Origin: Pseudomonadota bacterium
Lineage (GTDB): Bacteria; Myxococcota_A; UBA796; GCA-2862545
Direction: 5' to 3'
Assembly: GCA_002862545.1 (NCBI GenBank)
Contig: PKDJ01000041.1
Span: forward strand, 1-32,122
Length of the DNA: 32,122 nucleotides
Shown one piece after another: positions 1 to 31,233 of the stretch. How positions within the stretch are numbered: the first letter of the stretch is position 1; the number at the start of each line of letters is the position of its first letter. The position numbers and the translations under genes are program-made. Below the pieces are notes generated by a model. That model was not told the DNA's origin. It did no database searches and was given only the letters and a program-made list of their open reading frames with translations.

Positions 1-3000
1 GATCTCGACGACCGGCGGCGTGGGGACGAAGTTGGCCACGACGACACGGTTGGAGACGGCCTCTTCGCTCTCGTGAACGCCATCGGAGGCGATGATGCTG
101 CAGCGAATGCCATCGCCGCGGGCGAAGTAGCTCCCGTCGAGAGTCGGCGAGTCGTAGTCCGGGACCTCGGCGAGGTCGACGCGCCAGCTGTAGGACAGCG
201 TCACCTCGTCCCCGTTGGGGTCGAAGACATCCACGGCGTAGCACTGCATGATGTCGGCTTCGGTCGGGCCGCCCGGTCCGAGGACGGCCGTGACGCTCGG
301 GGTCTCGCCGTCGTCGGGCCCCCCACCGTCGCCGCCGATCACGACAGACGCCGGGGCGGCCTCGGTCTCGAAGATGCCGTCGCTGGCGAACACGAGACAG
401 GTGACCTCGGCGGCCTCACCGTAGTCGACGCCCGAGAGCACGCTGTCGGTGACATCGGAGAGCTCGCCGTCGAGCCACCACTCGTAGCGGAAGGTGACCT
501 CGTCGTAGTTGGGGTCGCGCACCTCCAGTGGGATGCACGTCACGGGCTCACCACGCTCGGGCTCGGCGGGCTCGACCACGGCGCCCTCGAGGTCGGGCGC
601 GAGCGGTGGGATCTCCAAGACGCGTCGGTCGGTCTCGGCCTCGAGCTCGGCCATCAGTCTGTCGTAGGCGGCGGCGGCCTCGCCCTCGAGGGGACCGCTG
701 TCCGTCAGGTCTTCTCGCTCCACGACCTCGCCGTCGAGATCGAAGAACGAGATGTCGGTGGGGGGATCCTCATCGAAGTCCTCACCGATGATCAGCTTCC
801 AGCGGCCGTCCGTGATCGCGCGACTGCGAGTCATGTAGGGGCCGGGGCCATTCGGTGTGGCCCGGGACACCATCAGCGTGTCGCGGAGTCCGGGCCGCTC
901 GGGCTCGGCGAGGTAGGGGAGGAGGCTCTGTCCATCGACGAGCACGGGGTGTACGTCGGCGCGGTCGTCGGTCGTCGTGAGGGCCTGGAGGTCGACGCCG
1001 GCCATGATGCCGGCCGTCGCGAAGACATCGACGGCATGGACGAGCGCTCCGGACTCCGTGCCTGCTCGAGCAACGAGCGGCGAGCGCACCACGAGGGGGA
1101 CGTTGATGCCGCCTTCCCACACGCTGCCCTTGCCCTTGCTCGGGTCGAAGGGCTCCGTGATCGCGTGCTTCGGAGTGCCGTTGTCACCCATGAAGATCAC
1201 GTGGGTGTCGTCGACGGCCTCCGCTGGGATGTTGTCCAGGAGGCGGCCGATCTCCGTGTCGAGGGCCTCGACCATCGCCTGGTACATGTCGTGGTCGGAC
1301 GACGCCGGGGTGAGGTCATCGTAGCCATGGAGGCCTGCCGGCGGGACGTGCAGCGGCGTGTGTGGCGCGTTGAAGGCCACGTAGAGGATCCAGGGCTCCG
1401 GCATGCGGTGCATCTGGGAGATGGCGTCGTCGACCGTGTCGGTCGTGGCGTAGACCTCATGTGCAGACAGGGACCCGTTGGTGTTCTTCTCCCAGAGCGA
1501 GTAGCCCTGTAGGTCAGATTCGAGGAGGTAGGCCGGGTCCCGGAGATTTCCGAGGGAGCCGGCGTGCCACCCGAAGCCGGCGTTCGCGGGATGTTCGAAG
1601 CCGTCAGCCGGCGTGCCGAGGTGCCACTTGCCCGTCAGCGAGGAGACGTACGTGAAGTCTGGGCTCTCGGCGAGCATGCGGGGCAGCATCACCTCGGTGT
1701 CGGGCACGGAGGGGGTCCACTCCCAGTTGTCGATGATCTTGTTGACGCCGAAGCGCTCGGGGAAGCGTCCGGTGAGCATGGCCGCGCGGGTCGGTGAGCA
1801 CGTCGGCTGCGAGTAGGCGTTGCGGAAGAGAACGCCGTCCTCGGCCAGCATGTCGATGTTCGGTGTGGGTGGCGCGCCCGCATGCTCGCCGTAGGCTCCG
1901 ACCTTGTCGGTGCCCACGTCGTCGGCGACGAGCAGGATGAGGTTGCCGCCGGCTGGGGCGGGCTCGACCTCGACCGGTTCGGTAGCCGGGGACTCGCCGA
2001 GCAGATCGCCCGCCACCCAGGCGCACGACCAGGTGCGCGCATGGGTGGTCTCGTGAGCCGGGATGGTGTCCGCGGTGCGCTCGCCGTCGGTGCCCGCGTA
2101 GAGCACGCCATCGGCTCTCCACACGGCCCGGTAGTCAATCGGGTCGCCGTCGGGATCGACCGCGGGCTCGCTGAGGACGCAGTGGAGGTCGTCTACGCCC
2201 CAGGTGGGTTCGACAGGCTCGATGCCGGGCACGGCTCCCTCAGGCCGACCGTTGACGATCTCGACGGCGTCGAGGAGCATCGGCGCGCCGAGGTCGTCGC
2301 CATCGAAGGGACTGACCTCCGCCCTGACCAAATCACCGAGCGCGAAGAAGGCGGGCTCGAGGGTCTCGCCGACATGCACCTCCACGCCGTCGACGATCCA
2401 GCGGATCTGCAGCACCACGTCGTCGCCGTCGTCGTCTCGTGTGAGCACGTCGGCGATCGAGAGCGTGCTGCCAGAGGTTGGCTCGAGCGGATGGATGGCG
2501 GCGGCCGAGAGGACGGGCGGCGTGTTGGCGACCACCACCTCGAGGCTGGCGACGGGTGAGCCGAGGTCTAAGCCGTCGAAGGGGGTGGCCTCACAGCGAA
2601 CGCGGTCGCCCTTGTCGTACCCCGTGCCGTTGAGGCGCGGGGTGTCACTGACGAGGACATCGTTGACGTACCACGACCACTGGTAGTTCTCGGCATCACC
2701 GTCGAGGTCGGACCACCCGTCGGGTGTGCACTCCGTGGGGCGCTCCTCCAAGGGCAGGGGCTCGAGCGCCACAGCTGTGATGGACGGAGGCGTGTTGGCG
2801 ACCAGCAGGGGCTCGCTGGCCACCTCATCGCTCGACAGGCTGCTGTCGGAGGCGACGGCGGTAGCGACCACGGCCTCGCCACGCACGGTGCCGACGAGGG
2901 AGAGGGTGTCGCCGGCACCTGCGACGGCACCGTCGACCGTCCACACCACGTCGACGATCAGATCGTCCCCGTCGGCGTCGTAGGCCTCGACGACTGCGGT

Positions 3001-3672
3001 CACAGTGTCGCCCGACCGTGCCTCGGAGGGCTCGATCGTCACGGCTCTGAGCTCGGGCGCCACGTTTCCGATCGCTGCTGTCGCCTCGGCCGGCGTGCCG
3101 AGGAGGCTGCCGTCGTCGGGGGTCACGACCACTCGCCAGACCTGGCCGCCCTCCGTGGCGGATGCAGGTACCCGGTCCGAGACGAACTCCGTCGGCTCGC
3201 CATCGCGCGTCCAGCTCCAGGTGAGCAGCACGTCGTCGTCGTCGGCGTCCGTCGTGGTGACGACAGCAACGAGGTCGTCCGCGCCCGAGGGGTCGGCGGG
3301 TGTGAGGTCGAGCATGGCCGAGGGCGCGCTGTTCGCGATGGCCACCGCAGCCTCGACCGCCGGCGCCGAATCGCTGCCGTCGGTGGCGGTGACGAAGACC
3401 TGCCAGGTCTCGTCGCGCTGGGTGAGCGCGGCCGAGACAACGTCGTCGTCGAGGTCGGCCTGCGGGAGCCCGTTGTTCACCCACTCGTAGGTGTACGTGA
3501 CGCGCTCGCCCTCGGGGTCTTCCGCTTCTTCGACGATGGACACCACGAGGTCGTCGAGGGTGGTCGCATCTGCGGGGCCGAGGGCGATCACGGGGGTGGA
3601 CGGAGGCCGGTTATCGGCCTTGCCTCCGGTGCATGCGCTCACGACGAGCAGGACGGTCAGCAAACAGCGCAT
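1..3672 (-). CDS. Giant lipoprotein: sulfatase domain embedded in Ig-like repeats (partial, runs off left edge)
   Basis: A single frame stays open from ATG at 3672 to the left edge (at least 1224 codons), so the C-terminus is missing. The N-terminus is a lipoprotein signal with lipobox V-S-A-C (Cys14). Six Ig/PKD-like repeats of about 90 residues (about 25-574) follow, marked by DPDGD-type acidic turns and ending in motifs such as ANTPP. The sulfatase domain spans about 577-1015: metal Asp584/Asp585, the formylglycine motif starting at Cys625 (CSPTRAAMLTGR), GKWHLG at 681-686, and a later DNG motif. At least two more Ig-like repeats follow from about 1021. Sulfatases hydrolyse sulfate esters after a maturase converts the Cys; no maturase gene is visible here. 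The lipobox places it in the envelope, with the repeats probably spacing or displaying the enzyme. The substrate is unknown. It lies 99 bases downstream of a second sulfatase on the same strand. Confidence 0.9.
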   Translation of the reverse strand, partial: MRCLLTVLLVVSACTGGKADNRPPSTPVIALGPADATTLDDLVVSIVEEAEDPEGERVTYTYEWVNNGLPQADLDDDVVSAALTQRDETWQVFVTATDGSDSAPAVEAAVAIANSAPSAMLDLTPADPSGADDLVAVVTTTDADDDDVLLTWSWTRDGEPTEFVSDRVPASATEGGQVWRVVVTPDDGSLLGTPAEATAAIGNVAPELRAVTIEPSEARSGDTVTAVVEAYDADGDDLIVDVVWTVDGAVAGAGDTLSLVGTVRGEAVVATAVASDSSLSSDEVASEPLLVANTPPSITAVALEPLPLEERPTECTPDGWSDLDGDAENYQWSWYVNDVLVSDTPRLNGTGYDKGDRVRCEATPFDGLDLGSPVASLEVVVANTPPVLSAAAIHPLEPTSGSTLSIADVLTRDDDGDDVVLQIRWIVDGVEVHVGETLEPAFFALGDLVRAEVSPFDGDDLGAPMLLDAVEIVNGRPEGAVPGIEPVEPTWGVDDLHCVLSEPAVDPDGDPIDYRAVWRADGVLYAGTDGERTADTIPAHETTHARTWSCAWVAGDLLGESPATEPVEVEPAPAGGNLILLVADDVGTDKVGAYGEHAGAPPTPNIDMLAEDGVLFRNAYSQPTCSPTRAAMLTGRFPERFGVNKIIDNWEWTPSVPDTEVMLPRMLAESPDFTYVSSLTGKWHLGTPADGFEHPANAGFGWHAGSLGNLRDPAYLLESDLQGYSLWEKNTNGSLSAHEVYATTDTVDDAISQMHRMPEPWILYVAFNAPHTPLHVPPAGLHGYDDLTPASSDHDMYQAMVEALDTEIGRLLDNIPAEAVDDTHVIFMGDNGTPKHAITEPFDPSKGKGSVWEGGINVPLVVRSPLVARAGTESGALVHAVDVFATAGIMAGVDLQALTTTDDRADVHPVLVDGQSLLPYLAEPERPGLRDTLMVSRATPNGPGPYMTRSRAITDGRWKLIIGEDFDEDPPTDISFFDLDGEVVEREDLTDSGPLEGEAAAAYDRLMAELEAETDRRVLEIPPLAPDLEGAVVEPAEPERGEPVTCIPLEVRDPNYDEVTFRYEWWLDGELSDVTDSVLSGVDYGEAAEVTCLVFASDGIFETEAAPASVVIGGDGGGPDDGETPSVTAVLGPGGPTEADIMQCYAVDVFDPNGDEVTLSYSWRVDLAEVPDYDSPTLDGSYFARGDGIRCSIIASDGVHESEEAVSNRVVVANFVPTPPVVEI
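1951..3600 (-). repeat. Six tandem Ig/PKD-like domains N-terminal to the sulfatase
   Basis: This stretch encodes about six divergent copies of a roughly 90-residue beta-sandwich-like unit. Each has a W-x-x-D/N-G strand motif, an acidic DADGD/DPDGD-type turn and a closing ATDG/PFDG-type motif followed by A-N-x-x-P. Copies 4 and 6 contain paired cysteines that could form a disulfide. Further copies lie C-terminal to the enzyme, in about 1-612. Confidence 0.75.
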
Positions 3673-3771: not shown

Positions 3772-5094
3772 TCACTCGGGCACTCTCCAAGGCAGCTCGG
3801 CGGCCAAGCGGAGGTAGGCCTCCCGCTCGCTCGGTGTGAGGACGCCCTCCATCAGGTTCTCTCCCTCCACGTCGAGGCCCTCGAGGTCGTAGAGCTCGTG
3901 CATGGTCTCGGACCCATCGAGCCACTTCTGGACCAACTTGTACCGCTCGTCTCTGATCATCCGTCGAGCGTAGGTGTACGGACCACGGACGGGTCCGAAG
4001 GACTCGGAGTAGACGACTTGTCGGCGGCTGGGCGCATCCGGATCCACGAGGTACGGCATCAGCGATCGCGACTGAATATCGACCGGAATCCGCGACAGGT
4101 CCACCTCGGCGGCATCGGCGATCGTCGCGAAAAGATCCGAGATCTGGACGAGGTGGTCGATGGCCCGGCCTGGCTCGGTGACGACCGGGCCACGTGCGAT
4201 GAGAGGTACGCGAACCCCGCCTTCGTAGACTGTCCCCTTTGCGGTCGTCTCGTCGAACGGAGGAGACGCGGCCTCGGGTGGGCTGCCATTGTCGCCGAGC
4301 ACGAGGACGAGGGTGTCGTCGGCGTGCTCCGATTCGTCGAGGTGAGCGAGGACTCGGCCGAGCTCCGTGTCCACCGCTTCGGCCGCTGCGTTGTACTTGC
4401 GCATGACCGAGGTCGTGCCGACCGGCTCGGTGGTCAGCTCCGGTGGGGGCTCGTGCCAGGGAGCGTGAGGGGCATTGAAGGCCATCCACATGAACCATGG
4501 GGGCTCCATGGCGTCGATGCGCGCGATGGCGTCATTGGCGGTGTCGGTCGTCACGTACGTCTCGACCCACTCCAGGGCGCCGTTGGTGTTCTTCTCCCAG
4601 TGGTAGTACGACATCGGTGAGCCGTCAGAGCTGTGGCTGGGGCCCAGATCGCCCATCTGCCCTGCGTAGAAGTCGTAGCCTTGATCGTTCGCGTGGTTGA
4701 ACAGATCGGAGCGGAAGGAGCCGAGGTGCCACTTGCCGAGCGCGCTGGACTCGTAGGCTCCGTCCGTACCGAGTCGGAGCATCTCCGGGATGGTGATCTC
4801 CTCCAGTCGAAGCGACACGGGCCCACGCGGGGACAGCGGGCGGGCAATCCGATGTTGCCAGGGCTGGCGGCCGGTCTGTGCGGTGGCCCGGCTCGGGGAG
4901 CAGGACGGCATCGCGTAGGCCCGGGTGAAGTGCACTCCCTCTGCTCCGAGGCGGTCTAGGGTCGGCGTTGGAGGAACCTCCTCGCGACCGACGCCGTAGA
5001 GCCCCACCTTGTCGACTCCGAGATCGTCGATCACGACCACCAAGACATTCAGGGGAGATGCAAGGGCGATCCCGGCGGCGAGGTAGAGCAGCAT
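3772..5094 (-). CDS. Exported formylglycine-type sulfatase
   Basis: A 440-residue sulfatase of the alkaline-phosphatase superfamily with an N-terminal signal peptide (about residues 1-13). Visible family features are metal-binding Asp23/Asp24, the formylglycine motif from Cys65 (CSPSRATAQTGR), GKWHLG with Lys121 and His123, AFNAPHAPWH, and GDNGSP. The frame stays open upstream to 5526, but that part is antisense to the neighbouring ATP-grasp gene. I chose ATG 5094 because a signal peptide begins there and a good extended -10 lies exactly one leaderless distance upstream. It is Cys-type, so it needs a maturase (FGE or anSME) encoded elsewhere. It resembles the sulfatase domain of the downstream giant lipoprotein but lacks Ig-like repeats. 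The substrate cannot be read from the sequence. Confidence 0.93.
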   Translation of the reverse strand: MLLYLAAGIALASPLNVLVVVIDDLGVDKVGLYGVGREEVPPTPTLDRLGAEGVHFTRAYAMPSCSPSRATAQTGRQPWQHRIARPLSPRGPVSLRLEEITIPEMLRLGTDGAYESSALGKWHLGSFRSDLFNHANDQGYDFYAGQMGDLGPSHSSDGSPMSYYHWEKNTNGALEWVETYVTTDTANDAIARIDAMEPPWFMWMAFNAPHAPWHEPPPELTTEPVGTTSVMRKYNAAAEAVDTELGRVLAHLDESEHADDTLVLVLGDNGSPPEAASPPFDETTAKGTVYEGGVRVPLIARGPVVTEPGRAIDHLVQISDLFATIADAAEVDLSRIPVDIQSRSLMPYLVDPDAPSRRQVVYSESFGPVRGPYTYARRMIRDERYKLVQKWLDGSETMHELYDLEGLDVEGENLMEGVLTPSEREAYLRLAAELPWRVPE

Positions 5095-5100
5095 GCGCGC

Positions 5101-5109
5101 AGAATAGCA
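5101..5109 (-). promoter_or_regulatory. Extended -10 promoter for a leaderless sulfatase transcript
   Basis: On the minus strand the sequence reads TGCTATTCT, an extended -10 (TGn plus 4 of 6 consensus bases). Only six bases separate it from ATG 5094, so transcription would begin at or next to the start codon. No Shine-Dalgarno lies at usable distance; the nearest GGGAGG is 16 bases away. The -35 match is poor, as is common with extended -10 promoters. Confidence 0.45.
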
Positions 5110-5220
5110 GCCTCCCGCGGGGCCTCCCACGGGTGCGTGTCGGCACCTCGCGCGTACATATGACTTCCCAGTGCCGCGTCCTCGGGTGCCGGATATGCGC
5201 CGCGCCCGACTGGAGCACCC

Positions 5221-6474
5221 ATGGCGACGATCACGAAGCACATCGGCCTGTCGCTCGGCGCAGATCTCTGCTGGCCCGCGGCCTTCGAGGCCCTCGTCGA
5301 GGCCCTTGACCTCACCGTCCCCGTTGGCGAAGACCAGGTTCGCTTCGCGGTCGAGCGGGTGACCGTCGAGCCATACGACCTCCAGTACACGCCCAAGTAC
5401 TCCCTGATCCTCGACCGGCTCACGCACTGGTTCATGACGAGTCGAGAGTGGATCAAGAAGCTCGTCTTGATGGACGACGTGTACGTGCTGAACGATCCGT
5501 GGTCGATCCAGAGCATGGAGAAGCACACATCGTACGCGGCGATGATGCGCCTGGGACTACCCATCCCGAAGACCTGGATGATCCCTCCGAAGGAGTATGA
5601 GCGCGGCGGCGACTGGGATGCCACGGTCGCTCGGTACAACAAGCTCTTCGACCTCGGCGAGGTGGGCCGTCAGGTCGGCTACCCGGCCTTCCTGAAGCCC
5701 TACGACGGGGGAGGGTGGGTCGGCGTCACCCGAGTGACGAACGAGCAAGAGCTGCGTGCGGCCTACGACAAGTCGGGCAAGCGGGTTCACCACCTCCAGG
5801 CTGCGGTCCCAGACTGGGACCTCTTCGTGCGGGCCATCGGGATCGGTCCACAGGTCAACGTCGTTCGCTACGACCCCGACCAACCCCTTCACGACCGCTA
5901 CCGGGTGGACTTCAACTTCGTGGACGGCCCGGAGTGGCAGCGTGCTGCGCGCACCTGCCGCACGATCAACGCCTTCTTCAACTGGGACTTCAACAGCTGT
6001 GAGCTGCTGCGGCAGGCAGAGACTCGGATCTTCCACCCGATCGACTTCGCCAATGCGTGCCCGGACAGCCAGGTGACGAGCCTGCACTACCACTTCCCGT
6101 GGCTGGTGAAGGCCCTGATCCGCTGGTCACTCTTCAACGTGGCCACGGGTCGGAAGAAGCCGCTCGATACCCAGTGGCAGCGCTTCTATGATGCACATGA
6201 CCCCAGCCTCGACCCTGACGATCAGCTAGCGGCCTACGATGCGATCGCGCAGGAGTACTACGACACTCCCGCCTTCGAGGCCTTCTGTGACGAGCACCTC
6301 GGTGACCTCGACCGGGTCGCCGTCGAGTACTTCTCGTCCGCCGAGTTCAAGGAGGTGGTGCGCATGAAGGTCTCCGCCTTGTTCCCGCAGCACGAGGTGG
6401 ACAAGTTCACCGAGCACTTCTTCGGAATGGTCCAGTTCTGGTGCCACACGGAGCGTGATCGGCTGGGCCTCTGA
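5221..6474 (+). CDS. ATP-grasp ligase-like protein (first of two)
   Basis: A 417-residue protein with no signal peptide. The central part has an ATP-grasp signature: GYPAFLKPYDGGG with Lys159, the usual ATP-phosphate-binding lysine, and a glycine-rich loop at 162-164 inside a RimK-like or carbamoyl-phosphate-synthase-like nucleotide fold. ATP-grasp enzymes activate a carboxylate as acyl phosphate and join it to an amine or thiol. The N-terminal 110 residues and the Trp/Tyr-rich C-terminal 150 residues match no family I can name. ATG 5221 follows a GGAG at about 5210. The gene is divergent from the sulfatase (126-base spacer) and is followed 83 bases later by the arylsulfotransferase-like gene. 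Substrates are unknown. Cytoplasmic location is inferred. Confidence 0.8.
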   Translation: MATITKHIGLSLGADLCWPAAFEALVEALDLTVPVGEDQVRFAVERVTVEPYDLQYTPKYSLILDRLTHWFMTSREWIKKLVLMDDVYVLNDPWSIQSMEKHTSYAAMMRLGLPIPKTWMIPPKEYERGGDWDATVARYNKLFDLGEVGRQVGYPAFLKPYDGGGWVGVTRVTNEQELRAAYDKSGKRVHHLQAAVPDWDLFVRAIGIGPQVNVVRYDPDQPLHDRYRVDFNFVDGPEWQRAARTCRTINAFFNWDFNSCELLRQAETRIFHPIDFANACPDSQVTSLHYHFPWLVKALIRWSLFNVATGRKKPLDTQWQRFYDAHDPSLDPDDQLAAYDAIAQEYYDTPAFEAFCDEHLGDLDRVAVEYFSSAEFKEVVRMKVSALFPQHEVDKFTEHFFGMVQFWCHTERDRLGL

Positions 6475-6557: not shown

Positions 6558-8063
6558 ATGCGCTTGGTGGGACTGCTTGTCTTGAGCTTGGTGGCGTGCA
6601 GCGGCGACGACAAGAACGTCGACAGCGCGGGGACCACTGGCGGTGGAGGAACGGCCATCCCAGGCGAGTTCGAGGCGACGATGGCCTTTGACGAGTGCAG
6701 CAAGGCGGGCCTGCGCGTGACCTGGACGAGCCCTGTGGAGGGCTCCAGCTTCGTCGAGTATGGCGTGGGTACGCCCGACGAGTCGGCCTTCGACCTCTCG
6801 ACTCCGGAAGACGCAGGCGGGACGGAGCACGAGTGGGTCCTGCGCGGGCTCACGAACGGGGAGACCTATGCAGTCCGACCGGTCACCGTCACGGCGGACG
6901 GAGAGAGGCTGGTGGGCCCGACCGAGCAGCACACGGTGCCCTTCGCACCGGCCGACCTGCTGCCGATGAAGATCGACGAGGCTCAGCTCGACCCGGCGCG
7001 CTCCGAGGTCTACGGCGGCTTCCTGACGATCAGCACGCTCGGCGCCGAGAGCAGCTACGCGGCGGTCCTCGACCCACGGACGGGTCAGTACACGTGGTGG
7101 TCGACGGTCGACGATCCCGGGAGCCTCGCTGTCGGTCGACTCAAGCCCAGTCGCGATGGCCAGTCCTTGCTGTGGAACGACTACCTCCGCTCTCGGGCTG
7201 TCGACGAGGCACACACCTACCGGTACTCCCATGACTCGTGCGACGTGGAGACCACGCGGAACCTGTGGGGGCACCATGACTTCAACGAGCTGCCAGATGG
7301 GTCTCACGGCTGGCTGAGCTACACCTTCGACGACGCGGTCGCGGTCGATGGATACGGTGAGATTCCGATCATCGCCGACAACATCTACGAGGCAGCCGCG
7401 GGGAGCGACACCGAGACACCCACCGAGATCTGGAGCTCGCTGACCGACTGGGACTGCCCGGTCTACTGGGTCGGGCCCACGATGGAGCTCGACGCCTGGG
7501 TGCCCGGCTACCACGAGTGGGGACACGGCAACTCGCTGGCCTACCTCGACGATGACGACGCCTACTTCATGATGATGCGCTACACCGACGCGCTCGTGAA
7601 GGTCGACCGCGCGACGGGCTCGACGGTCTGGACCATGGGGGGGCCATGCGGCACGGTAGCCAATGCTGCCGGCGATGCGCCGTTCTGGTCCTACCCTCAC
7701 TTCAGTCAGGTGTGGCGGGATGCCGACGGTCTGCATGTGTTGGTCTTCGACAACGGAGACAACTACGAGCCACAGATCAGCCGCGTGGTGGAGTACCTGA
7801 TTGACGAGGCGGCCGGCTCGGCCACCGAGGTCTGGAGCTACACCCACCCCACTGGCGACTTCATCCGCATCCTCGGAGATGCACGGCGGCTCGAGGGGGG
7901 CAACACCCTCATCGCCTGGTCTCCGCAGGGGGCGATGCAGGAGGTCACGCCTGAGGGAGACATCGTCTGGTACGCCTCCACCGGGCTTGGCCAGACGGTC
8001 GGGCGCGTCCACTTCATCCCCGACATCTACGCGGGCTCGATCGGCGGTAAAGGCACGCCCTGA
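6558..8063 (+). CDS. Arylsulfotransferase (ASST)-family lipoprotein
   Basis: A 501-residue lipoprotein: the signal ends in lipobox L-V-A-C (Cys14) and is followed by a Ser/Gly/Thr linker. Residues about 35-135 look like a fibronectin-III-like domain. The rest is a beta-propeller of the arylsulfotransferase type, with a His pair at 319/323 (YHEWGHGNS), Arg341 in MMMRYTD, VDRATGSTVWTMGG, His381 in YPHFSQVW, and EGGNTLIAWSPQG. Known ASST enzymes move a sulfuryl group between phenols through a catalytic His, but many family members are uncharacterised. A strong Shine-Dalgarno (AAGGAGGT, 6547-6554) sets the ATG. It lies between two ATP-grasp genes, all co-directional, opposite two sulfatases. That supports a sulfate-related role but does not prove it. 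Confidence 0.85.
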   Translation: MRLVGLLVLSLVACSGDDKNVDSAGTTGGGGTAIPGEFEATMAFDECSKAGLRVTWTSPVEGSSFVEYGVGTPDESAFDLSTPEDAGGTEHEWVLRGLTNGETYAVRPVTVTADGERLVGPTEQHTVPFAPADLLPMKIDEAQLDPARSEVYGGFLTISTLGAESSYAAVLDPRTGQYTWWSTVDDPGSLAVGRLKPSRDGQSLLWNDYLRSRAVDEAHTYRYSHDSCDVETTRNLWGHHDFNELPDGSHGWLSYTFDDAVAVDGYGEIPIIADNIYEAAAGSDTETPTEIWSSLTDWDCPVYWVGPTMELDAWVPGYHEWGHGNSLAYLDDDDAYFMMMRYTDALVKVDRATGSTVWTMGGPCGTVANAAGDAPFWSYPHFSQVWRDADGLHVLVFDNGDNYEPQISRVVEYLIDEAAGSATEVWSYTHPTGDFIRILGDARRLEGGNTLIAWSPQGAMQEVTPEGDIVWYASTGLGQTVGRVHFIPDIYAGSIGGKGTP

Positions 8064-8094: not shown

Positions 8095-8148
8095 GACAGG
8101 CCCGCGACCTCACGATAGCCGCGGCGCCCCGCGTGGATGGAGTGCCGC

Positions 8149-9378
8149 ATGGCTCACGTGATTTTTGTCGCACCTCACTTTCCTGCCAACCAGCGCCGCT
8201 TCGCTCGGGGACTGAAGGCGGTGGGAGCGCGGGTCACTGGGATCTGTGACGTGAAGTACGAGCACCTCGACCCCGAGCTGCGGGGCTTGCTCGACGACTA
8301 TGAGTACGTACCCGCGGTCACCCACGAGGCCAGCCTGCACGACGCCGTGAAGCGCATCCAGGAGCGTGGGCCTTGGGTCGATCGTCTCGAGGCCACGGTC
8401 GAGGCGCACATGCTTCCCGTAGCCCTCGTGAGGAAGGCGCGAGGCATTCCTGGTGCTACGCCTGCCCAGGTCGAGCTGTGCCGCGACAAGTACAAGATGA
8501 AGCAGTTCCTTCGCGCGCGAGGCATCCCCTGCGCTCGGAACGCCATCGTCAACCGCGCCGAAGACGCCATCGCCTTCGTCGAGGAGGTCGGGTACCCGAT
8601 CATCCTGAAGCCACGTGACGGCGCCGGTGCACACTCGACCTACCGCATCGACGACGCGGCTGACCTGCAGCGTGCGATCTCCGAGACGGGGCTCGACCGG
8701 CGCGCAGCGTTCTTCACGGCCGAGGAGTTCGTCGCTGGTCACGAGGGCTACTTCGACACGCTGACCGTCAATGGTCAGGTCGTCTTCGAGGCGATCACGC
8801 ACTACTACCCCAACGTCCTCGGGGCGATGCGCGAGCGGTGGATCAGCCCGCAGATGGTCACGACGAACCGCATCGACGCTCCTGGCTACGGCGAGCTCCG
8901 AGAGTTCGGTCGGCGGGTGGTCGACGCCTTTGGCCTCGGCACGACGGCCACCCACATGGAGTGGTTCGCGGGGCCCAAGGGGCTGATGTTTAGCGAGATC
9001 GGTGCGCGTCCGCCGGGCTGCAACTTCTGGGATGTGTACTGCGCGGCGAACGACTTCGACCTCTACACCGAGTGGGCTCGGGCGATCGTGCACGGGCGGG
9101 TCGAGCAGCGTCCCAGTCGGCGCTACGCTGCTGGCCTGATCGCACTACGGCCCAGCCAAGATGGTCGCATCGTCGGCTACAGCGGCGTGGAGGAGATGCA
9201 GCAGAAGTACGGGGAGAACATCTTCCGTGCTCACCTGCCTCCCGTCGGCCATCACACGCAGCCAGTTGAGGCCGGCTACCTCGCAAATGCATACGTCTGC
9301 GTGCGTCATCCGAACTACGACACGGTCCGAGCAATCCTCGATGACATTGGGCAGTCGGTGAAGGTCTGGGCTCGCTGA
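8149..9378 (+). CDS. ATP-grasp ligase-like protein (second of two)
   Basis: A 409-residue protein. The start ATG 8149 is preferred over ATG 8137 because GGAG at 8139-8142 is spaced six bases from it, and the protein then opens directly with a hydrophobic beta strand (MAHVIFVAPHFP). The layout is a pre-ATP-grasp domain (about 1-110), then an ATP-grasp fold with GYPIILKPRDGAGA (ATP-binding Lys and glycine loop), EEFVAGHEG, and the metal/catalytic strand HMEWF followed by FSEIGARPPG. This resembles biotin-carboxylase and carbamoyl-phosphate-synthase type ligases more than RimK. It is clearly different in sequence from the first ATP-grasp protein, so the two may catalyse successive steps. Cytoplasmic. 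The substrate is unknown. Confidence 0.87.
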   Translation: MAHVIFVAPHFPANQRRFARGLKAVGARVTGICDVKYEHLDPELRGLLDDYEYVPAVTHEASLHDAVKRIQERGPWVDRLEATVEAHMLPVALVRKARGIPGATPAQVELCRDKYKMKQFLRARGIPCARNAIVNRAEDAIAFVEEVGYPIILKPRDGAGAHSTYRIDDAADLQRAISETGLDRRAAFFTAEEFVAGHEGYFDTLTVNGQVVFEAITHYYPNVLGAMRERWISPQMVTTNRIDAPGYGELREFGRRVVDAFGLGTTATHMEWFAGPKGLMFSEIGARPPGCNFWDVYCAANDFDLYTEWARAIVHGRVEQRPSRRYAAGLIALRPSQDGRIVGYSGVEEMQQKYGENIFRAHLPPVGHHTQPVEAGYLANAYVCVRHPNYDTVRAILDDIGQSVKVWAR

Positions 9379-18625: not shown

Positions 18626-19471
18626 TCAGACCTGCTCGACCCGCTTGATGTCGTCTGGGAAGGCCTCCCGCAGCGCCCGCTCCACGCCGAGCTTGAGCGT
18701 GGCGGTGGATGCAGGGCAGGTGCGACAGGCGCCCTCCATGGCGACCTGAACGACCCCATCGGTGATGCCGAGCAGTCTGAGGTCACCACCATCCCTGTGG
18801 ATTCCGGGGAGTATGCGCTCCTCGAGGACCTCCATGACGGCCTGCTCGAGAGGATCTTGGCGAGCGGCAGCCTCCGCACCCGTCAGTGCCTTGCCGCAGA
18901 GCAAGAAGTGTTGGCGCAGGGCTTGGTCGACGCCTCGGTCGATGGCAGGCCAGGGATGATCGGGCTCGCGCTCCACCGTGATGGTGTTGTCGCGCAGGAG
19001 GACCGAGCGTACGCCCTCGGTCTCCAGCAAGCGGCTCGGTAGATGGGGGAGCTGGGACTGACCGGCGGAGAAGAACCGCGGCGCGCCGACGGCCAGCTGT
19101 CGAGTGCACAGGTAGAGCCGACCGTTCGGGTTGGGGGTCTCGCGCGCACGAACCTCGAGCGCGAGGACGACCTGCCATCCTCCCTGGGTGTGGTCGAGCA
19201 AAAGGCCGCTGAGGTGCTCTAGGTCAGCGTTGCCCATGGTCACCGGCCCGTCGATCTCGGGCGGCGGAGGACCCTGCAGCTCACCCTCGGCGACCTGAAC
19301 GATGCGTCCACGATCGGTGAGGGCGGTCTGCACGTGAATCCCGTGACCGTCGGGGAGCGAGGCGAGGTGAGCCCGAGCGCTCTCGGTCAGGGCGACAGGG
19401 GTGTCAGCGGGTGTGACGGTGAGGGCATGCTGCATGCCCAGCGCGCTTCGGAGCGTGTCGAGGAGTCCCAT
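18626..19471 (-). CDS. Nfu-type Fe-S cluster carrier, three-domain form
   Basis: A 281-residue protein. The N-terminal region (about 15-110) resembles an A-type (IscA/HesB-like) domain without the conserved cysteines, as in the degenerate A-type domain of NfuA. The middle (about 112-185) matches the Nfu N-terminal domain, with TPNPNGRLYL, FFSAG, LLETEGVRSVLLRDNTITV. The C-terminal NifU domain has CxxC at Cys249/Cys252 (GACRTCPAS) and GGDLRLLGI. The CxxC from two monomers normally holds a [4Fe-4S] cluster for delivery to target enzymes. ATG 19471 follows GGAG closely. Divergent from the phosphatase gene (60 bases). Confidence 0.9.
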   Translation of the reverse strand: MGLLDTLRSALGMQHALTVTPADTPVALTESARAHLASLPDGHGIHVQTALTDRGRIVQVAEGELQGPPPPEIDGPVTMGNADLEHLSGLLLDHTQGGWQVVLALEVRARETPNPNGRLYLCTRQLAVGAPRFFSAGQSQLPHLPSRLLETEGVRSVLLRDNTITVEREPDHPWPAIDRGVDQALRQHFLLCGKALTGAEAAARQDPLEQAVMEVLEERILPGIHRDGGDLRLLGITDGVVQVAMEGACRTCPASTATLKLGVERALREAFPDDIKRVEQV

Positions 19472-19531
19472 GCGCTCCGGTATCCTCCGAACGCAGAGCG
19501 GGCTCCCGGCATAGGTGGCTGACGGGGACCG

Positions 19532-20017
19532 ATGAGCCGACCGATCCGCGTGCTGTTTGTCTGTCTCGGCAACATCTGTCGAAGTCCGCTCGCTGAGGGG
19601 CTCTGCATCGGTTCGGTCGAGCGCCGAGGCCTCGAAGGACGCTTCGAGATCGCCTCTGCGGGCACGGCTGCGTACCATGCAGGCGAGCTGGCCGACCCCA
19701 GGACGAGAGAGATCCTGGAGCAGCGTGGGATTCAGCTGCGTAGTCGGGCTCGCAGGATCACACCGACGGACTTCGTCTACTTTGACCACGTGCTGGCGAT
19801 GGACGAGTCGAACCTGCGGTCGCTCCTCGCTCAGTGTCCGGAAGACCATCGCTACAAGCTTCGAAAGGTTCTGGCGCTGTCGAGCGGGGGGGACGTGGTC
19901 GACCCCTACTACGGCGGGCCTGCGGGCTTTGAACGCAATGCTGCGCAGCTCGAGGTGGCCCTCGAGGCATGGATCGCGCACTGGCTCACCGACCGCCGCG
20001 ACTCCGACCACGCTTGA
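19532..20017 (+). CDS. Low-molecular-weight protein tyrosine phosphatase
   Basis: A 161-residue protein matching the family's usual length. The P-loop CLGNICRS has catalytic Cys11 and Arg17, followed by PLAEG. AGT (residues 43-45) and the general-acid loop DPYYGG near 124 complete the active site. It dephosphorylates phosphotyrosine or phosphoarginine, or small phosphates. Its last 32 bases overlap the 3' end of the convergent RelA/SpoT-like gene. Confidence 0.96.
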   Translation: MSRPIRVLFVCLGNICRSPLAEGLCIGSVERRGLEGRFEIASAGTAAYHAGELADPRTREILEQRGIQLRSRARRITPTDFVYFDHVLAMDESNLRSLLAQCPEDHRYKLRKVLALSSGGDVVDPYYGGPAGFERNAAQLEVALEAWIAHWLTDRRDSDHA

Positions 20018-21062
20018 GGCGGCGCTCTACACGCCGCTCTTGCCTGGCCTTGTACAGATGATGCGCGTTCTCGCCCTCTTCGTTCAGGCGCGCGGTCTCT
20101 GCGTCGACGAGCTGGAACTCGACCATCACGAACACCGTGCGCCCCAGCTCGAACGACAGCGGGCCGAGCGCCGACCCCGGGACTCGAACGGGATAGTCGA
20201 CGATGAAGTTGATCATTCGGTAGCTTGCGCCAGAGAACTCGTTCTTTCCCTGATCGTGTAGCTCGGGCAGGCTCAGCGCCTGTGCCGACTCCCGGTCGTC
20301 GTCGGTCAGGAAGTCGAGCAGCGACTCGGGCTCGAGCAGGTTGTTGTGGCTCTGGCCAGGGATCACGTAGTTGAACGGAAAGACGTGGCGCGTCATCCAG
20401 GTGAGGGTGGGGGCGATGTCCTCTGGAGTCGCCACCACGATGCGAAAGCGCAGCTTGTCGAAGATCGTGGCCGCGATGTTCTCGGCCTTGGCGAGCAGCT
20501 TGGTGATCACGCTGCTTCTGGACTTCCGGTTTCCGTAGAAGCTGACGATCGGCAGGCCTGCGGCCTGCATGTCGCGCGCCGAGCGGAGGATCTCGCCATA
20601 GGCGAGCTCGACGTACTGCACCTCGGAGATCGGGGTTCGGAACTTCAGGTCGGCCGCCTCCATGTGATGGATGACGTGCATCAGCTTCAGGATGACGCAG
20701 GAGAGGATCTGGGTGCGCCTGAAGCCGCCCGACTGGGACGCCCACATGAAGAGAGAGCGTACGTCCGAGGGGTTTCGTAGCTCTCGGGGGAAGGTGAGCC
20801 CGAGGTGCTCCTCGAGGTAGGAGACAGCCTCGTTGAACACGTACCGGAGGCGTAGGCGGTCCTCGTCGGAGCTCGGGTCGAGCAGGAGCCGGGCGAGGAA
20901 GCGGTCGACCTCGTCGAAGTTCTGGAATGCCAAGCGCTGCCAGTCGACCACCGAGGTGCCGGAGAGCAGCAGCCTGACGCTCTCGACATCCTGGAGTCGA
21001 ATGTCGAGCGCGTGCAGCGTGGTGTCGAGGGAGCTGTCAATCTCGAGGATGTCGCGTCGCAT
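19986..21062 (-). CDS. RelA/SpoT-like (alarmone synthetase fold) protein with novel N-terminal domain
   Basis: A 358-residue protein. Residues 175-345 carry the spaced signature of RelA/SpoT synthetase domains. KxxxSxxxK is Lys180, Ser184, Lys188. IFDKLRFRIVV with Arg207 is followed by Asp215 (PED), matching the catalytic Asp. Tyr281 (GASYRMIN) matches the stacking Tyr. Glu315-x-Gln317 matches the catalytic ExQ, and E-x-G-x-x-A-H-x-x-Y-K at 329-339 matches the conserved C-terminal helix. There is no HD hydrolase, TGS or ACT domain. The N-terminal 170 residues are mostly helical and unfamiliar. It may belong to a hypothetical family I recall as TIGR04552 in Myxococcota (unverified). ATG 21062 is chosen as the first Met of a helical start; the Shine-Dalgarno is weak. 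Product chemistry is inferred: (p)ppGpp, pppApp or a protein/RNA target. Confidence 0.8.
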   Translation of the reverse strand: MRRDILEIDSSLDTTLHALDIRLQDVESVRLLLSGTSVVDWQRLAFQNFDEVDRFLARLLLDPSSDEDRLRLRYVFNEAVSYLEEHLGLTFPRELRNPSDVRSLFMWASQSGGFRRTQILSCVILKLMHVIHHMEAADLKFRTPISEVQYVELAYGEILRSARDMQAAGLPIVSFYGNRKSRSSVITKLLAKAENIAATIFDKLRFRIVVATPEDIAPTLTWMTRHVFPFNYVIPGQSHNNLLEPESLLDFLTDDDRESAQALSLPELHDQGKNEFSGASYRMINFIVDYPVRVPGSALGPLSFELGRTVFVMVEFQLVDAETARLNEEGENAHHLYKARQERRVERRLKRGRSRGGR

Positions 21063-21088: not shown

Positions 21089-22318
21089 TCAGTCGCGACG
21101 ACGCCGGAGCAGACCGAGCCCGAGGACCAGAGCAAGGGTGCCGAGCGGTGCATCGGCTCCGTGGCTGCACCCAACCGGTCCGCCGCCGCGGAGCATGAAC
21201 TCGTCGTCGCAGAGGTCGCCGAAGCCGTCGCCGTCCTCGTCGAGCTGCTCGGGGTTCTCGAAGAACGGGCAGTTGTCACAGAGGTCGCCGATGCCGTCGA
21301 GATCCTTGTCGGACTGGTCGGGATTGGAGAGCTCCGGGCAGTTGTCGCACACGTCGCCGAAGCCGTCGGGGAAGCCGTCCTCGTCTTCGTCAACGTCTGC
21401 CTGATCCGGGTTGAACACGTCGATGCAGTTGTCGCAGACGTTGCCGAGCTGGTCCTGGTCGTTGTCGTCCTGACCGGCGTTGGGGATCGTCTGGCAGTTG
21501 TCGCACTCGTCACCGACGCCATCCGTGTCGGCATCGGCCTGGGTCGGGTTGAAGGTGTCGGGGCAGATGTCGCAGACATCCCCGATGCCGTCAGCGTCGA
21601 CATCTTCCTGCGTCGGGTTGAAGCGCAGGAAGCAGTTGTCGCAGAGGTCGTTGCGACCGTCGGCGTCGCTGTCCTCCTGCCCCGGGTCGAAGTCGAAGGG
21701 ACAGGGATCGCAGGCGTCCCCGACGAAGTCCTCGTCAACGTCTCCCTGGCCGCGGTTGAACACGTCAGCGCAGTTGTCGCAGGCATCTCCGAAGCCATCA
21801 CCGTCTGAGTCGAGCTGCGCGGGGTCGTAGTCGAAGGGGCACAGGTCGCACTCATCGCCGATTCCGTCGTAGTCGAAGTCGGTCTGGAGTGGGTTGGGAA
21901 TGGTGAGGCAGTTGTCACACAGGTCGCCCACGTCGTCGCAGTCGACATCAGCCTGGTCGAGGTTCCAGTTCTCCGGGCAGTTGTCGCAGGAGAGGATGAA
22001 CACACGCTCGGGGAACTTGGCATCGGGCGGGACGGGCAGCTGGCCATCGGAGAGGCCGTCGCCGTCGATGTCATAGGTCGCCGGATCTACGAAGTAGTCG
22101 CACCCGAACGAGTGGTAGTCGTAGTAGTAGTCGGCGTTCGAGAAGGGCAGCCCGGTGTAGTCATCGACGTTCTCCAGACAGGTGGGGTCGGAGATATTGA
22201 CCGCCGCCTCGTCGCGAACGTCGATGGTGTTGCAGTTTAAGTCCTGGTTGATGGTGGTGTTCACGCAGGCCACGCCGCCGGCGGTCGCGGCTTGGAGCGT
22301 GAGGAACAGCATCAGCAT
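21089..22318 (-). CDS. Secreted thrombospondin-type-3 repeat protein with MYXO-CTERM-like tail
   Basis: A 409-residue protein. A signal peptide (about 1-14) precedes a Cys-containing N-terminal region (15-110, Tyr/Asp-rich). Eleven TSP3 units (112-370) follow, then [14 protein letters not shown], a hydrophobic helix and RRRR at the end. The tail matches the MYXO-CTERM sorting pattern, in which a Cys motif plus helix is processed and the protein becomes surface-anchored. The repeats bind calcium in known proteins. ATG 22318 has a poor Shine-Dalgarno but an extended -10 lies 67 bases upstream. It ends 26 bases before the RelA/SpoT-like gene, on the same strand, so they may be co-transcribed. 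Confidence 0.92.
21209..21985 (-). repeat. Eleven tandem TSP3 units, Cys-containing type
   Basis: Units of about 23 residues follow the pattern D-N-C-P...N-P-x-Q-x-D-x-D-x-D-G-x-G-D-x-C. One unit is lengthened by six residues with an extra DEDGFPDG. Each unit has a pair of Cys and a run of Asp positioned to bind calcium. Confidence 0.9.
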
Positions 22319-22384
22319 GAAGGCTTCCGGGGCAGAGAGGGTGCACAGCTGGCTCGTGTCCGAGGGCGCACACCGTGGGCGCGC

Positions 22385-22393
22385 ACTATAGCA
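22385..22393 (-). promoter_or_regulatory. Extended -10 promoter for the TSP3/MYXO-CTERM gene
   Basis: The minus strand reads TGCTATAGT, an extended -10 with 5 of 6 consensus bases and no clear -35. The predicted start is near 22378, leaving about a 60-base leader. It shares the TGCTAT core with the leaderless sulfatase promoter. Confidence 0.5.
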
Positions 22394-22443
22394 CTCCCGC
22401 AGGACCGGACGAGCGTCACAACCGACGTCACGAGCAGCGCAGC

Positions 22444-22449
22444 GGAGGA
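22444..22449 (+). promoter_or_regulatory. Shine-Dalgarno deciding rsgA start
   Basis: GGAGGA lies three bases before GTG 22453. The longer in-frame GTG (22375) has no such site and falls next to the promoter of the divergent gene. Confidence 0.6.
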
Positions 22450-22452
22450 CTT

Positions 22453-23388
22453 GTGCGGGGTGGTGGCAAGCGCCCTTCGAGGGGTCGGCGTGCTCGTCAG
22501 GCGGATGAGCGCGCCGGAGAGGTCGTCGAGATCCGAGGACGACGAGTGGTCGTGCGCGATCCGGAGGGGGAGCGGGTCTGCTTTCTCTCCGGGGAGCGAG
22601 CGGTGGTCGGCGATCGGGTGAGGTGGGTCGAGGCTCGGGGCACCGGTGGCAAGCTCGTGGGGGTCGAGCCGCGCCGCACGGCGCTCGAGCGGGTCGACGC
22701 CATCGGGCGCGTGCAGGTCCTCGCTGCGAACCTCGGGGGTCTGATCGTCGTCACCGCGCCGGTGTCGCCTCCCTTCCGCGCGGGGCTGTTGGATCGCTAC
22801 ATCGTCACGGCTCGGAGTGCCGGTCTCGATGTCGTCATCGTGGTGAACAAGCTCGATGAGGGTGTGCCGGCCGAGGTCGAGGAGGCGCTCGCGCTCCGTG
22901 ATGAGGTCGAGCAGCTTCGGGTCAGCGCAGCGACGGGCGAGGGGCTGCAAGACCTCCGCCACGCCCTGGCTGAGTGGTCGTCGGATGCCCCGTGGGCTCT
23001 CGTGGGGCACTCCGGTGTCGGAAAGACGAGCCTGGTCGCTGCTCTGCTGCCGGAGAGAGACGACATCGGAGAGATCGGGGCCCTGTCTTCGCACTGGGGA
23101 ACGGGTCAGCACACGACCACCCGCTCCCGCTTGTTCGAGCTGCCCGGGGGAGGTGCCATCGTCGACAGCCCCGGAATCCGAACCTTCGCGCCAGGTCGGC
23201 TGTCGAGCATCGAGGTCCGACGATTCTTCCCCGGGTTTGGCACGGTTCGCTGCAAGTACCGTGACTGCCGGCATCGCGAGGGCGAGGAGGGCTGCGTCGC
23301 CGACGAGCTCGTCCCTGCGCAGCTGCTGACCAGCTATCGCCGCATGCACGATGAGCTCGTGGCGATCGAGGAGCGGCAGCGGCCCTAG
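22453..23388 (+). CDS. rsgA: Ribosome small-subunit biogenesis GTPase RsgA
   Basis: A 311-residue protein with the RsgA layout. An OB-fold lies at about 20-75. The GTPase is circularly permuted, so the motifs run G4 (NKLDE), then G1 ([10 protein letters not shown]), then G3 (DSPGIR). A C-terminal zinc-binding region has Cys-x4-Cys-x-His (CKYRDCRH) and a later Cys. The gap between G1 and G3 contains TTRSRLF, the family's switch region. RsgA checks late 30S maturation. The basic N-terminus ([14 protein letters not shown]) fits rRNA contact. Divergent from the TSP3 gene and convergent with the MATE gene 26 bases away. Confidence 0.95.
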
Positions 23389-29412: not shown

Positions 29413-31233
29413 ATGTGGCTCCTCGCGCTCGCGCTCGCAGCCGGCGCGGTCGACACGGACGGTGATCTACTCGACGATGCCTTCGAGGTGGAGATCGGGA
29501 CCGATCCTGATGATCCGGACTCGGATGACGATGGACTGCGCGACGGCATCGAGACCTACGGGCCTGATCTGGCGCTCGGGACGGGAGATGAGTCGGATCC
29601 ACTCGACTCTGACACCGATGACGATGGGATCGACGACTTCCTCGAGCGCCGTGGCGAGGACGGCGAGCCGGACACCTTCGACGAGCTCGACCCGCTCGAC
29701 CCCGACGTCGATGACGACGGGCTCCCCGATGGCCTAGAGGGTGGGTACTGCGAGGGCACGAGCGGTGGCGTGTCGGATGTGGCGAAGATTCCGTTTCGAG
29801 GAACTGACCTGGCGGTGTTCCGACCGGACGGGGACTGCGGCATCACGACGACTCAGCTGTGGCAGGCCGACAGCGACGGCGACGGGCTGACCGATGGGGA
29901 AGAGGATCTCGATGGTGATGGTGTGCCGGACGGCGACCAGCCTGGCACAGCGGACGACGAGACGGACCCCACGCTCGAAGACACCGACGGTGACGGCGTC
30001 GACGATCGCTCCGAGGGAGGGGCAGGTGGGCCAGACAGCGACGGTGACGGCACCATCGATGCCCTCGACGCCGACACGACCGCCGTGGACTCGGACGGCG
30101 ACGGCCTGACGGACGAGGAGGAGAGCGTCCTCGGAACCAATCCCTATCTGGCCGACAGCGACTCGGATGGACTGGACGACGAGGCGGAGGTCGAGACCCA
30201 CGGGACCGATCCGATCCGGGCCGACACCGACGGTGATGGCCTGCTCGACGGCGAGGAGATCGACGTGCACGGCACCGATCCTCTGTTGGTCGACACCGAT
30301 GGTGAGGGGCTCACGGACTGGGAGGAGGTGTACGAGCATCCCACCGACCCGACCATGCGCGACACGGATCTCGATGGGCTCGACGACTACGAAGAGCGGA
30401 TCATCTGGGGGACCTACCCGCGCGCGAAGGACACGGACGGTGATGGGCTCTGGGATGGACCAGAGGTCGACGAGCACGGCACCGATCCCCGCCTCTTCGA
30501 CACCGATGGGGGCGGGGCAGGAGATGGCATCGAGGTCGACGCAGGCATGGACCCTCTCGACCCCTCCGATGATGACGCCGACAGCGACGGTGATGGGCTC
30601 ACGCTCTCGGAGGAAGACCACTGGGGCACGGATCCCACTGATCCCGACACCGACGACGATGGCCTTGGAGACGGTGAGGAAGTCGAGCTCGGCACGGACC
30701 CGACCTCTGCGGACCCGGATGGTGATGGCTTGATCGACCCCGACGAGCTCGCGCTAGGGACCGATCCCTTCCTGTGGGACTCAGACGGGGACCAGCTGGG
30801 AGACGGCGACGAGGTGCAGGCAGGCACTGACCCGGCCAATCCAGACACTGATGCGGATGGCATGCCGGATGGTGACGAGGCCGTGAGGGGCACGAATCCA
30901 CTGCTGGCGGACACCGACGGGGATCGGCTCGTCGATGGCGACGAGCCACCCTTGGGATGCGACCCACTCTCTGCTGACACGGACGGTGATGGTCTGAGAG
31001 ATGGTCGGGAGGTCGAGCTTGGGACCTCGCCGGTCGACCCCGACACGGACGGGGGCGGTGTCGAGGACGGCCAGGAGAGGAAGGACGGCACCGATCCTCT
31101 CGACCCCAGTGATGATGGTCAGTCCAAGCGGCAGCGGGCGTCTACAGGCTGTGGCTGTGAGCATGGGGGTGCGCCTGGAGGTGGTCTCGGCCTCGGTCTC
31201 GTGCTCCTCGGCCTGTGGCGGAGGCGTCGGTGA
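29413..31233 (+). CDS. Asp-rich bacterial TSP3-repeat protein with MYXO-CTERM tail
   Basis: A 606-residue protein. A short signal peptide (about 1-12) is followed almost immediately by calcium-binding-type repeats of the form D-T-D-G-D-G-L-x-D-G-x-E...G-T-D-P, about twenty of them. A non-repeat insert (about 115-155, two Cys) interrupts them. The end reads [10 protein letters not shown], a hydrophobic helix and RRRR, the MYXO-CTERM sorting signal. It is probably exported, calcium-stiffened and anchored on the surface. GAGG precedes ATG 29413. Its TGA overlaps the downstream GTG (GTGA). Confidence 0.93.
29452..31110 (+). repeat. About twenty Cys-free bacterial TSP3 repeats
   Basis: Units of about 18-30 residues alternate D-x-D-G-D-G-L-x-D-G-E-E with G-T-D-P. 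Unlike the TSP3 repeats at 21209-21985 these lack Cys, so they belong to a different TSP3 subtype. Confidence 0.88.

Follow-up and report, generated by a model that had tools for sequence, protein, structure and literature searches.

The closest described systems for the locus analyzed here are the RelA/SpoT-type (RSH) enzymes, namely, the long RSH proteins (Rel, RelA and SpoT; Pfam PF04607), the small alarmone synthetases (SAS), including RelP (YwaC) and RelQ (YjbM), and the toxSAS proteins FaRel2, FaRel, PhRel and CapRel together with Tas1. In the classification of Atkinson 2011, 30 SAS subgroups were defined (PMC3153485). In SaRelP, R78 and R112 stack the adenine, K80, S84, K88 and R91 bind phosphates, D107 and E174 bind Mg2+, Y151 holds guanosine and H190 the ribose (PMC5794853). 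It follows from studies of toxSAS that acceptors other than GTP/GDP are possible with the RSH fold; in particular, FaRel2 acts on tRNA CCA ends, and its N-terminal extension shares in tRNA recognition (PMC11782079). The window, i.e., the whole stretch of 32,122 nucleotides that was analyzed, carries on its minus strand (19986-21062) a TIGR04552-family gene, whose product combines an RSH-type synthetase domain with a novel helical N-terminal domain.

The ORF of this gene extends from an ATG at position 21062 to a stop codon at position 19986 and encodes 358 aa. Since the close relatives begin at the same methionine with M-R-R-D-x-L-E, the annotated start is correct, and the ORF is, according to this sequence comparison, real. 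The protein matched the NCBIfam families TIGR04552 (326.1 bits, cut-off 125) and TIGR04562 (306.5 bits, cut-off 140) over its full length, both domains included. By these scores, it is not an orphan and belongs to existing uncharacterized families, to which NCBIfam assigns no function and from which it did not differ in any respect, i.e., this is plain membership. The TIGR04552 gene was found in 229 of the 379 sampled genomes of the window's phylum (about 60%), almost always as a single copy. Outside this phylum, the occurrence of the family was supported only for Bdellovibrio, where a small indel in a TIGR04552 gene of Bdellovibrio sp. NC01 is listed in a mutation table for one evolved population (PMC9888234). 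A literature search by family name found TIGR04552 in that paper only and did not find TIGR04562; nor did it find a published statement of a relationship between TIGR04552 and RelA/SpoT.

The C-terminal half is distantly related to the ppGpp-making RelA/SpoT enzymes and appears to be intact; at the family level, this link is firm. PF04607 was matched by 39 of 40 family members at E ≤ 1 (best E = 6.6e-7); no other Pfam family was matched by two or more of them. The 358-aa protein by itself scored 17.2 bits and did not reach the Pfam RelA_SpoT cut-off of 27, which counts against its reading as an active RSH enzyme, while the relative from genome G037 cleared the cut-off by itself (27.8 bits); thus, the RSH relationship is already partly visible to databases. 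The family profile matched nine PDB chains, all nine being RelA/SpoT-type enzymes with RelSeq (1vj7) at the top (E = 1.8e-4); both motif blocks were colinear in the RelSeq alignment, and in the same profile search, the RelP stretch GYRSLHLIIEMPV was aligned to SYRVINFVVDLPV. Comparison of the C-terminal domain with the Rel/SAS domains of the same phylum using hhalign gave E = 1.7e-9 over 131 columns, whereas the column-shuffled control gave E = 0.35. An AlphaFold2 model of the protein, built from 14 sequences, had a pLDDT of 79.5 and a pTM of 0.79, and the best 50 PDB fold matches listed for it by Foldseek were all RSH synthetases (top E = 2.2e-4, probability 1.00 for most), the best being the RelP/RelQ structures 5ded and 6fgk. 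The TM-scores were modest (≤0.53 by target length) and the rmsd was large, which also speaks against an active RSH enzyme; the evidence from this comparison is the ranking, not the superposition.

The RelA/SpoT signature that the sequence-only reading had placed in this half was therefore borne out, as its landmarks were found and the profile and fold searches converged on RSH proteins. The assumption that the motifs match by chance in an unrelated protein would explain the weak single-sequence Pfam hit and a single-sequence phmmer search of the PDB, in which no relevant match to the protein was found. This assumption is extremely improbable and was rejected, since independent profile, profile–profile and fold searches all reached RSH synthetases and shuffled controls did not; when D202 was used instead of D215, the landmarks were found in the required order in the protein but in none of its 100,000 shuffles.

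Residue conservation was counted over 44 family members. The putative donor phosphate site is formed by a β1 strand and a helix with K180-x3-S184-x3-K188-x3-K192 (20487-20549, minus strand, as are all features of the gene given below), which aligned with K243, S247 and K251 of RelSeq. It is followed by D202-x4-R207 (20442-20459), the counterparts of the catalytic metal-binding Asp (RelSeq D264, SaRelP D107) and of the adenine-side Arg (SaRelP R112), with roles according to PMC5794853, then by E315-x-Q317 (20112-20120), the counterpart of the catalytic Glu (RelSeq E323, SaRelP E174), and by G330-x3-H334-x2-Y337-K338-x-R340-Q341-x3-V345-x2-R348 (20019-20075), in which the counterpart of the G-x3-HWxYK block is joined to family-specific invariant R, Q, V and R residues. 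As in RelSeq and the long RSH proteins, the K-x3-S-x3-K, D-x4-R, G-loop Tyr, E-x-Q and G-x3-H-x2-YK elements were colinear, and the spacing from Glu to His was identical. By alignment and spacing, K180, S184, K188, D202, R207, Y281, E315 and H334 corresponded to K80, S84, K88, D107, R112, Y151, E174 and H190 of SaRelP, respectively. Residues K180, S184, K188, D202, R207, E315, Q317, H334, Y337 and K338 were invariant (44/44), and position 281 was occupied by Tyr in 41 members and by Phe in three. K180, S184, K188, R207, D215, Y281, E315 and Q317 were all located where they had been placed beforehand, and ExGxxAHxxYK was found at 328-338 instead of 329-339. The conservation expected of Lys180, Asp215 and Glu315 in homologues held for Lys180 and Glu315, which were invariant, but not for Asp215, which was conserved in only 39 of 44 members; the designation of the latter as the catalytic Asp is to be corrected, the RelSeq catalytic Asp being aligned with Asp202 (44/44).

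The degree of this conservation bears on whether the protein is a catalytically dead RSH-like nucleotide sensor or scaffold. Such a role would be consistent with the absence of the adenine-stacking Arg in all members and with a G-loop that is degenerate relative to the classical enzymes, but it is very unlikely because neither the two metal ligands nor any of the phosphate-binding residues varied among the 44 divergent proteins, with identities to the query down to 26%, which is unexpected for a pseudoenzyme. More probably, the TIGR04552 protein is an active RSH-type ATP pyrophosphotransferase of chromosomal, non-toxin nature, for which we infer the activity, the substrates and the role of the N-terminal domain. 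In such an enzyme, pyrophosphate from ATP would be transferred to the 3′-hydroxyl of an acceptor nucleotide, with K180, S184, K188 and K192 holding the donor phosphates, D202 and E315 binding the Mg2+ ion, R207 lying at the donor adenine and the acceptor base being stacked on Y281.

The active site differed from the classical ones on both sides. Position 178, two before the initial Lys of the phosphate site, was not Arg in any of the 44 members, which have G, S, P, N, D or E there, whereas 26 of the 27 Rel/SAS sequences compared from the phylum carry Arg at this point; the neighboring R179, found in 36 of 44 members, might replace the missing adenine-stacking Arg. The G-loop PKxNGYxSLH of classical enzymes was changed to NxFSxxxYRxI[HN]; in almost every member, NxFSxxx stands in the position of PKxNG. 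Its counterpart in the protein is N274-x-F-S-x3-Y281-R-x-I-[HN]-F (20205-20243), identified from the alignments, in which PKxNG is absent and Y281 is the predicted acceptor-stacking Tyr; one distant member retains the classical YRSLH, which supports this alignment. The G-loop is preceded by a variable insertion (aa 241-273; 20244-20342) with a mean identity of 13%. Family-specific invariant positions were N240, N274, D320, R340, Q341, V345 and R348. Thus, unlike the long RSH proteins, the TIGR04552 protein lacks the Arg two residues before Lys180, the PKxNG motif and the HD, TGS and ACT domains and has an extra variable insertion of ~30 residues and an N-terminal domain that does not match HD. 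It resembles RelP and RelQ in having a single synthetase domain, and SAS in general in that the domain occurs without HD, TGS and ACT (40 members), but differs from RelP and RelQ in being ~150 residues longer at the N-terminus, in lacking an equivalent of SaRelP R78 and in the changed G-loop.

Because the acceptor-side loop and the donor-side Arg were unlike those of the synthetases compared, the substrate choice, as far as can be judged from the residues, is probably altered. The absence of the Arg in 44 of 44 members and of PKxNG may also be held against an active RSH enzyme as such. The acceptor could be GTP/GDP, bound through contacts that have drifted, or a different nucleotide or RNA, and the product could be ppGpp, pppApp or a modified target. 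GTP/GDP as the acceptor corresponds to a conventional SAS making ppGpp/pppGpp from GDP/GTP, with the sequence drift being merely cosmetic. It would be in keeping with the retention of every catalytic residue, with the predominance of the acceptor-stacking Tyr281 (41/44, Phe in three), with the H/N at position 285 corresponding to the His of YxSLH and with the YRSLH of the distant member. Nevertheless, this reading is rather doubtful, considering the loss of PKxNG in nearly all members and of the donor-side Arg in all 44, as well as the new invariant N240, N274, D320, R340, Q341 and R348, which suggest a different pocket. In addition, the host genome already encodes two proteins scoring well above the Pfam RelA_SpoT cut-off, a long Rel (738-aa frame) and, separately, an SAS-like protein (288-aa frame); therefore, the TIGR04552 protein is the third RSH-type protein there. 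Among the RelA_SpoT proteins of the sampled genomes, intermediate Pfam scores (51-72 bits) were obtained for frames of 331-518 aa at G007:C97:3134-3505, G033:C39:42208-42579 and G038:C174:120-500, which might represent another divergent RSH group.

The N-terminal domain (aa 18-170, ~150 residues; 20553-21011) was all-helical in the AlphaFold2 models and was seen only in fusion with this synthetase domain. One face of a long helix in the model carries the conserved C122-x3-K126-x2-H129-x3-H133 (20664-20699), in which C122 and H133 were invariant in the 44 members, K126 was K or R and H129 was retained in 42 of 44. No Pfam, PDB-sequence or PDB-fold match was found for the domain; its model was of only moderate quality (pLDDT 71.5), so that the domain may yet conceal a known fold. 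A profile of the domain run over 96 genomes gave one copy per genome, located at the TIGR04552 locus wherever a locus was listed. HD, TGS and ACT domains were found by Pfam neither in the protein nor in any of the 40 members, and a degenerate HD domain at the N-terminus was rejected (hhalign against the Rel HD region, probability 0.1%, E = 0.43). These results uphold both the lack of the three domains and the unfamiliar nature of the N-terminus noted from the sequence. As we infer, this constant part of the protein probably serves to control the enzyme or to recognize its partner or acceptor.

By analogy with toxSAS FaRel2, the protein could be a pyrophosphotransferase whose target is RNA or some other macromolecule and whose N-terminal domain serves as a substrate-recognition module. 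The FaRel2 precedent of the fold acting on tRNA with an N-terminal extension in recognition (PMC11782079), the basic invariant C-terminal helix (R340, Q341 and R348), the unusual G-loop and the constant presence of the N-terminal domain agree with such a function; the lack of an antitoxin partner and the stable chromosomal single-copy inheritance speak against a translation-killing activity, and RNA modification of this type is considered unlikely. Tentatively, and as a possibility only, TIGR04552 may constitute an unrecognized RSH branch, nearly universal across large sections of its phylum, with a remodeled donor/acceptor site, a nucleotide or RNA product other than (p)ppGpp and control by a unique helical sensory domain.

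The genomic surroundings also separate the family from toxSAS and Tas1, with which it shares the catalytic fold. The TIGR04552 gene of the window is preceded by a gene encoding thrombospondin-type-3 (TSP3) repeats (21089-22318, minus strand), with 26 bases between the stop codon of the latter and the ATG, and its 3′ end is overlapped by a convergent gene for a low-molecular-weight phosphotyrosine phosphatase (LMW-PTP; 19532-20017, plus strand). An LMW-PTP homologue was found at only two other loci and a TSP3 gene near none; a functional reading of the phosphatase and surface-protein neighborhood was discounted, as the neighbors were not conserved. The gene of the ribosome-biogenesis GTPase RsgA (22375-23388, plus strand) was divergently adjacent at 10 other loci of the window's own clade, two of which apparently belong to the same genome; in the window, the TSP3 gene stands between the two. 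In other clades, mfd and a membrane protein gene, or lon, lay beside the TIGR04552 gene. A functional link to RsgA was also rejected, since an adjacency limited to the closest clade points to inherited gene order. No neighbor common to TIGR04552 loci across clades was found; six-frame neighbor lists were discarded because high G+C yields many false ORFs. The family likewise gave no match in plasmid sequences, the protein had no match in PADLOC, no relative was found in viral contigs and no conserved antitoxin-like or immunity gene adjoined the loci, all of which fits a stand-alone chromosomal gene and not a toxin–antitoxin module. Thus, unlike toxSAS and Tas1, TIGR04552 is a vertically inherited, near-single-copy gene without a conserved adjacent antitoxin or immunity gene, PADLOC match or plasmid occurrence. 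Because it is chromosomal, phylum-wide and near-single-copy and has no partner antitoxin, a toxin is less likely, and a housekeeping signaling or modifying enzyme is the more likely role.

A phage-borne member suggested by tblastn was dropped because the record resembles a mislabeled bacterial chromosome. This record, GenBank MW495066.1 ('Microcystis phage MaAM05', 273,876 bp), contains smc, scpA, scpB, topA, uvrA, glyS, secDF, zur, acpS, mtgA and a tRNA and encodes a distant TIGR04552-like protein (24% identity, 87% query coverage). Elsewhere in the window, a second TSP3 repeat protein is encoded at 29413-31233 (plus strand). The TSP3 protein of 21089-22318 (minus strand) ends in a C-terminal hydrophobic stretch followed by RRRR, a tail that we take to resemble a MYXO-CTERM sorting tail. 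Two adjoining sulfatase genes (1-3672 and 3772-5526, minus strand) lie near genes for an arylsulfotransferase-like protein (6558-8063, plus strand) and an ATP-grasp protein (8137-9378, plus strand), and an Fe-S scaffold protein with Nfu_N and NifU C-terminal domains is encoded at 18629-19555 (minus strand).

In stringent-response research, alarmone synthetases are counted by Pfam RelA_SpoT matches, and TIGR04552 proteins, mostly below that cut-off, are present beside a normal Rel in some 60% of the genomes sampled from the phylum. Consequently, Rel/SAS knockouts in these bacteria may leave a further RSH-type enzyme. The altered substrate pocket and the new N-terminal domain offer a direct way to test which substrates the RSH fold can use and how it is regulated, and the phylum may harbor an overlooked signaling or modifying enzyme.
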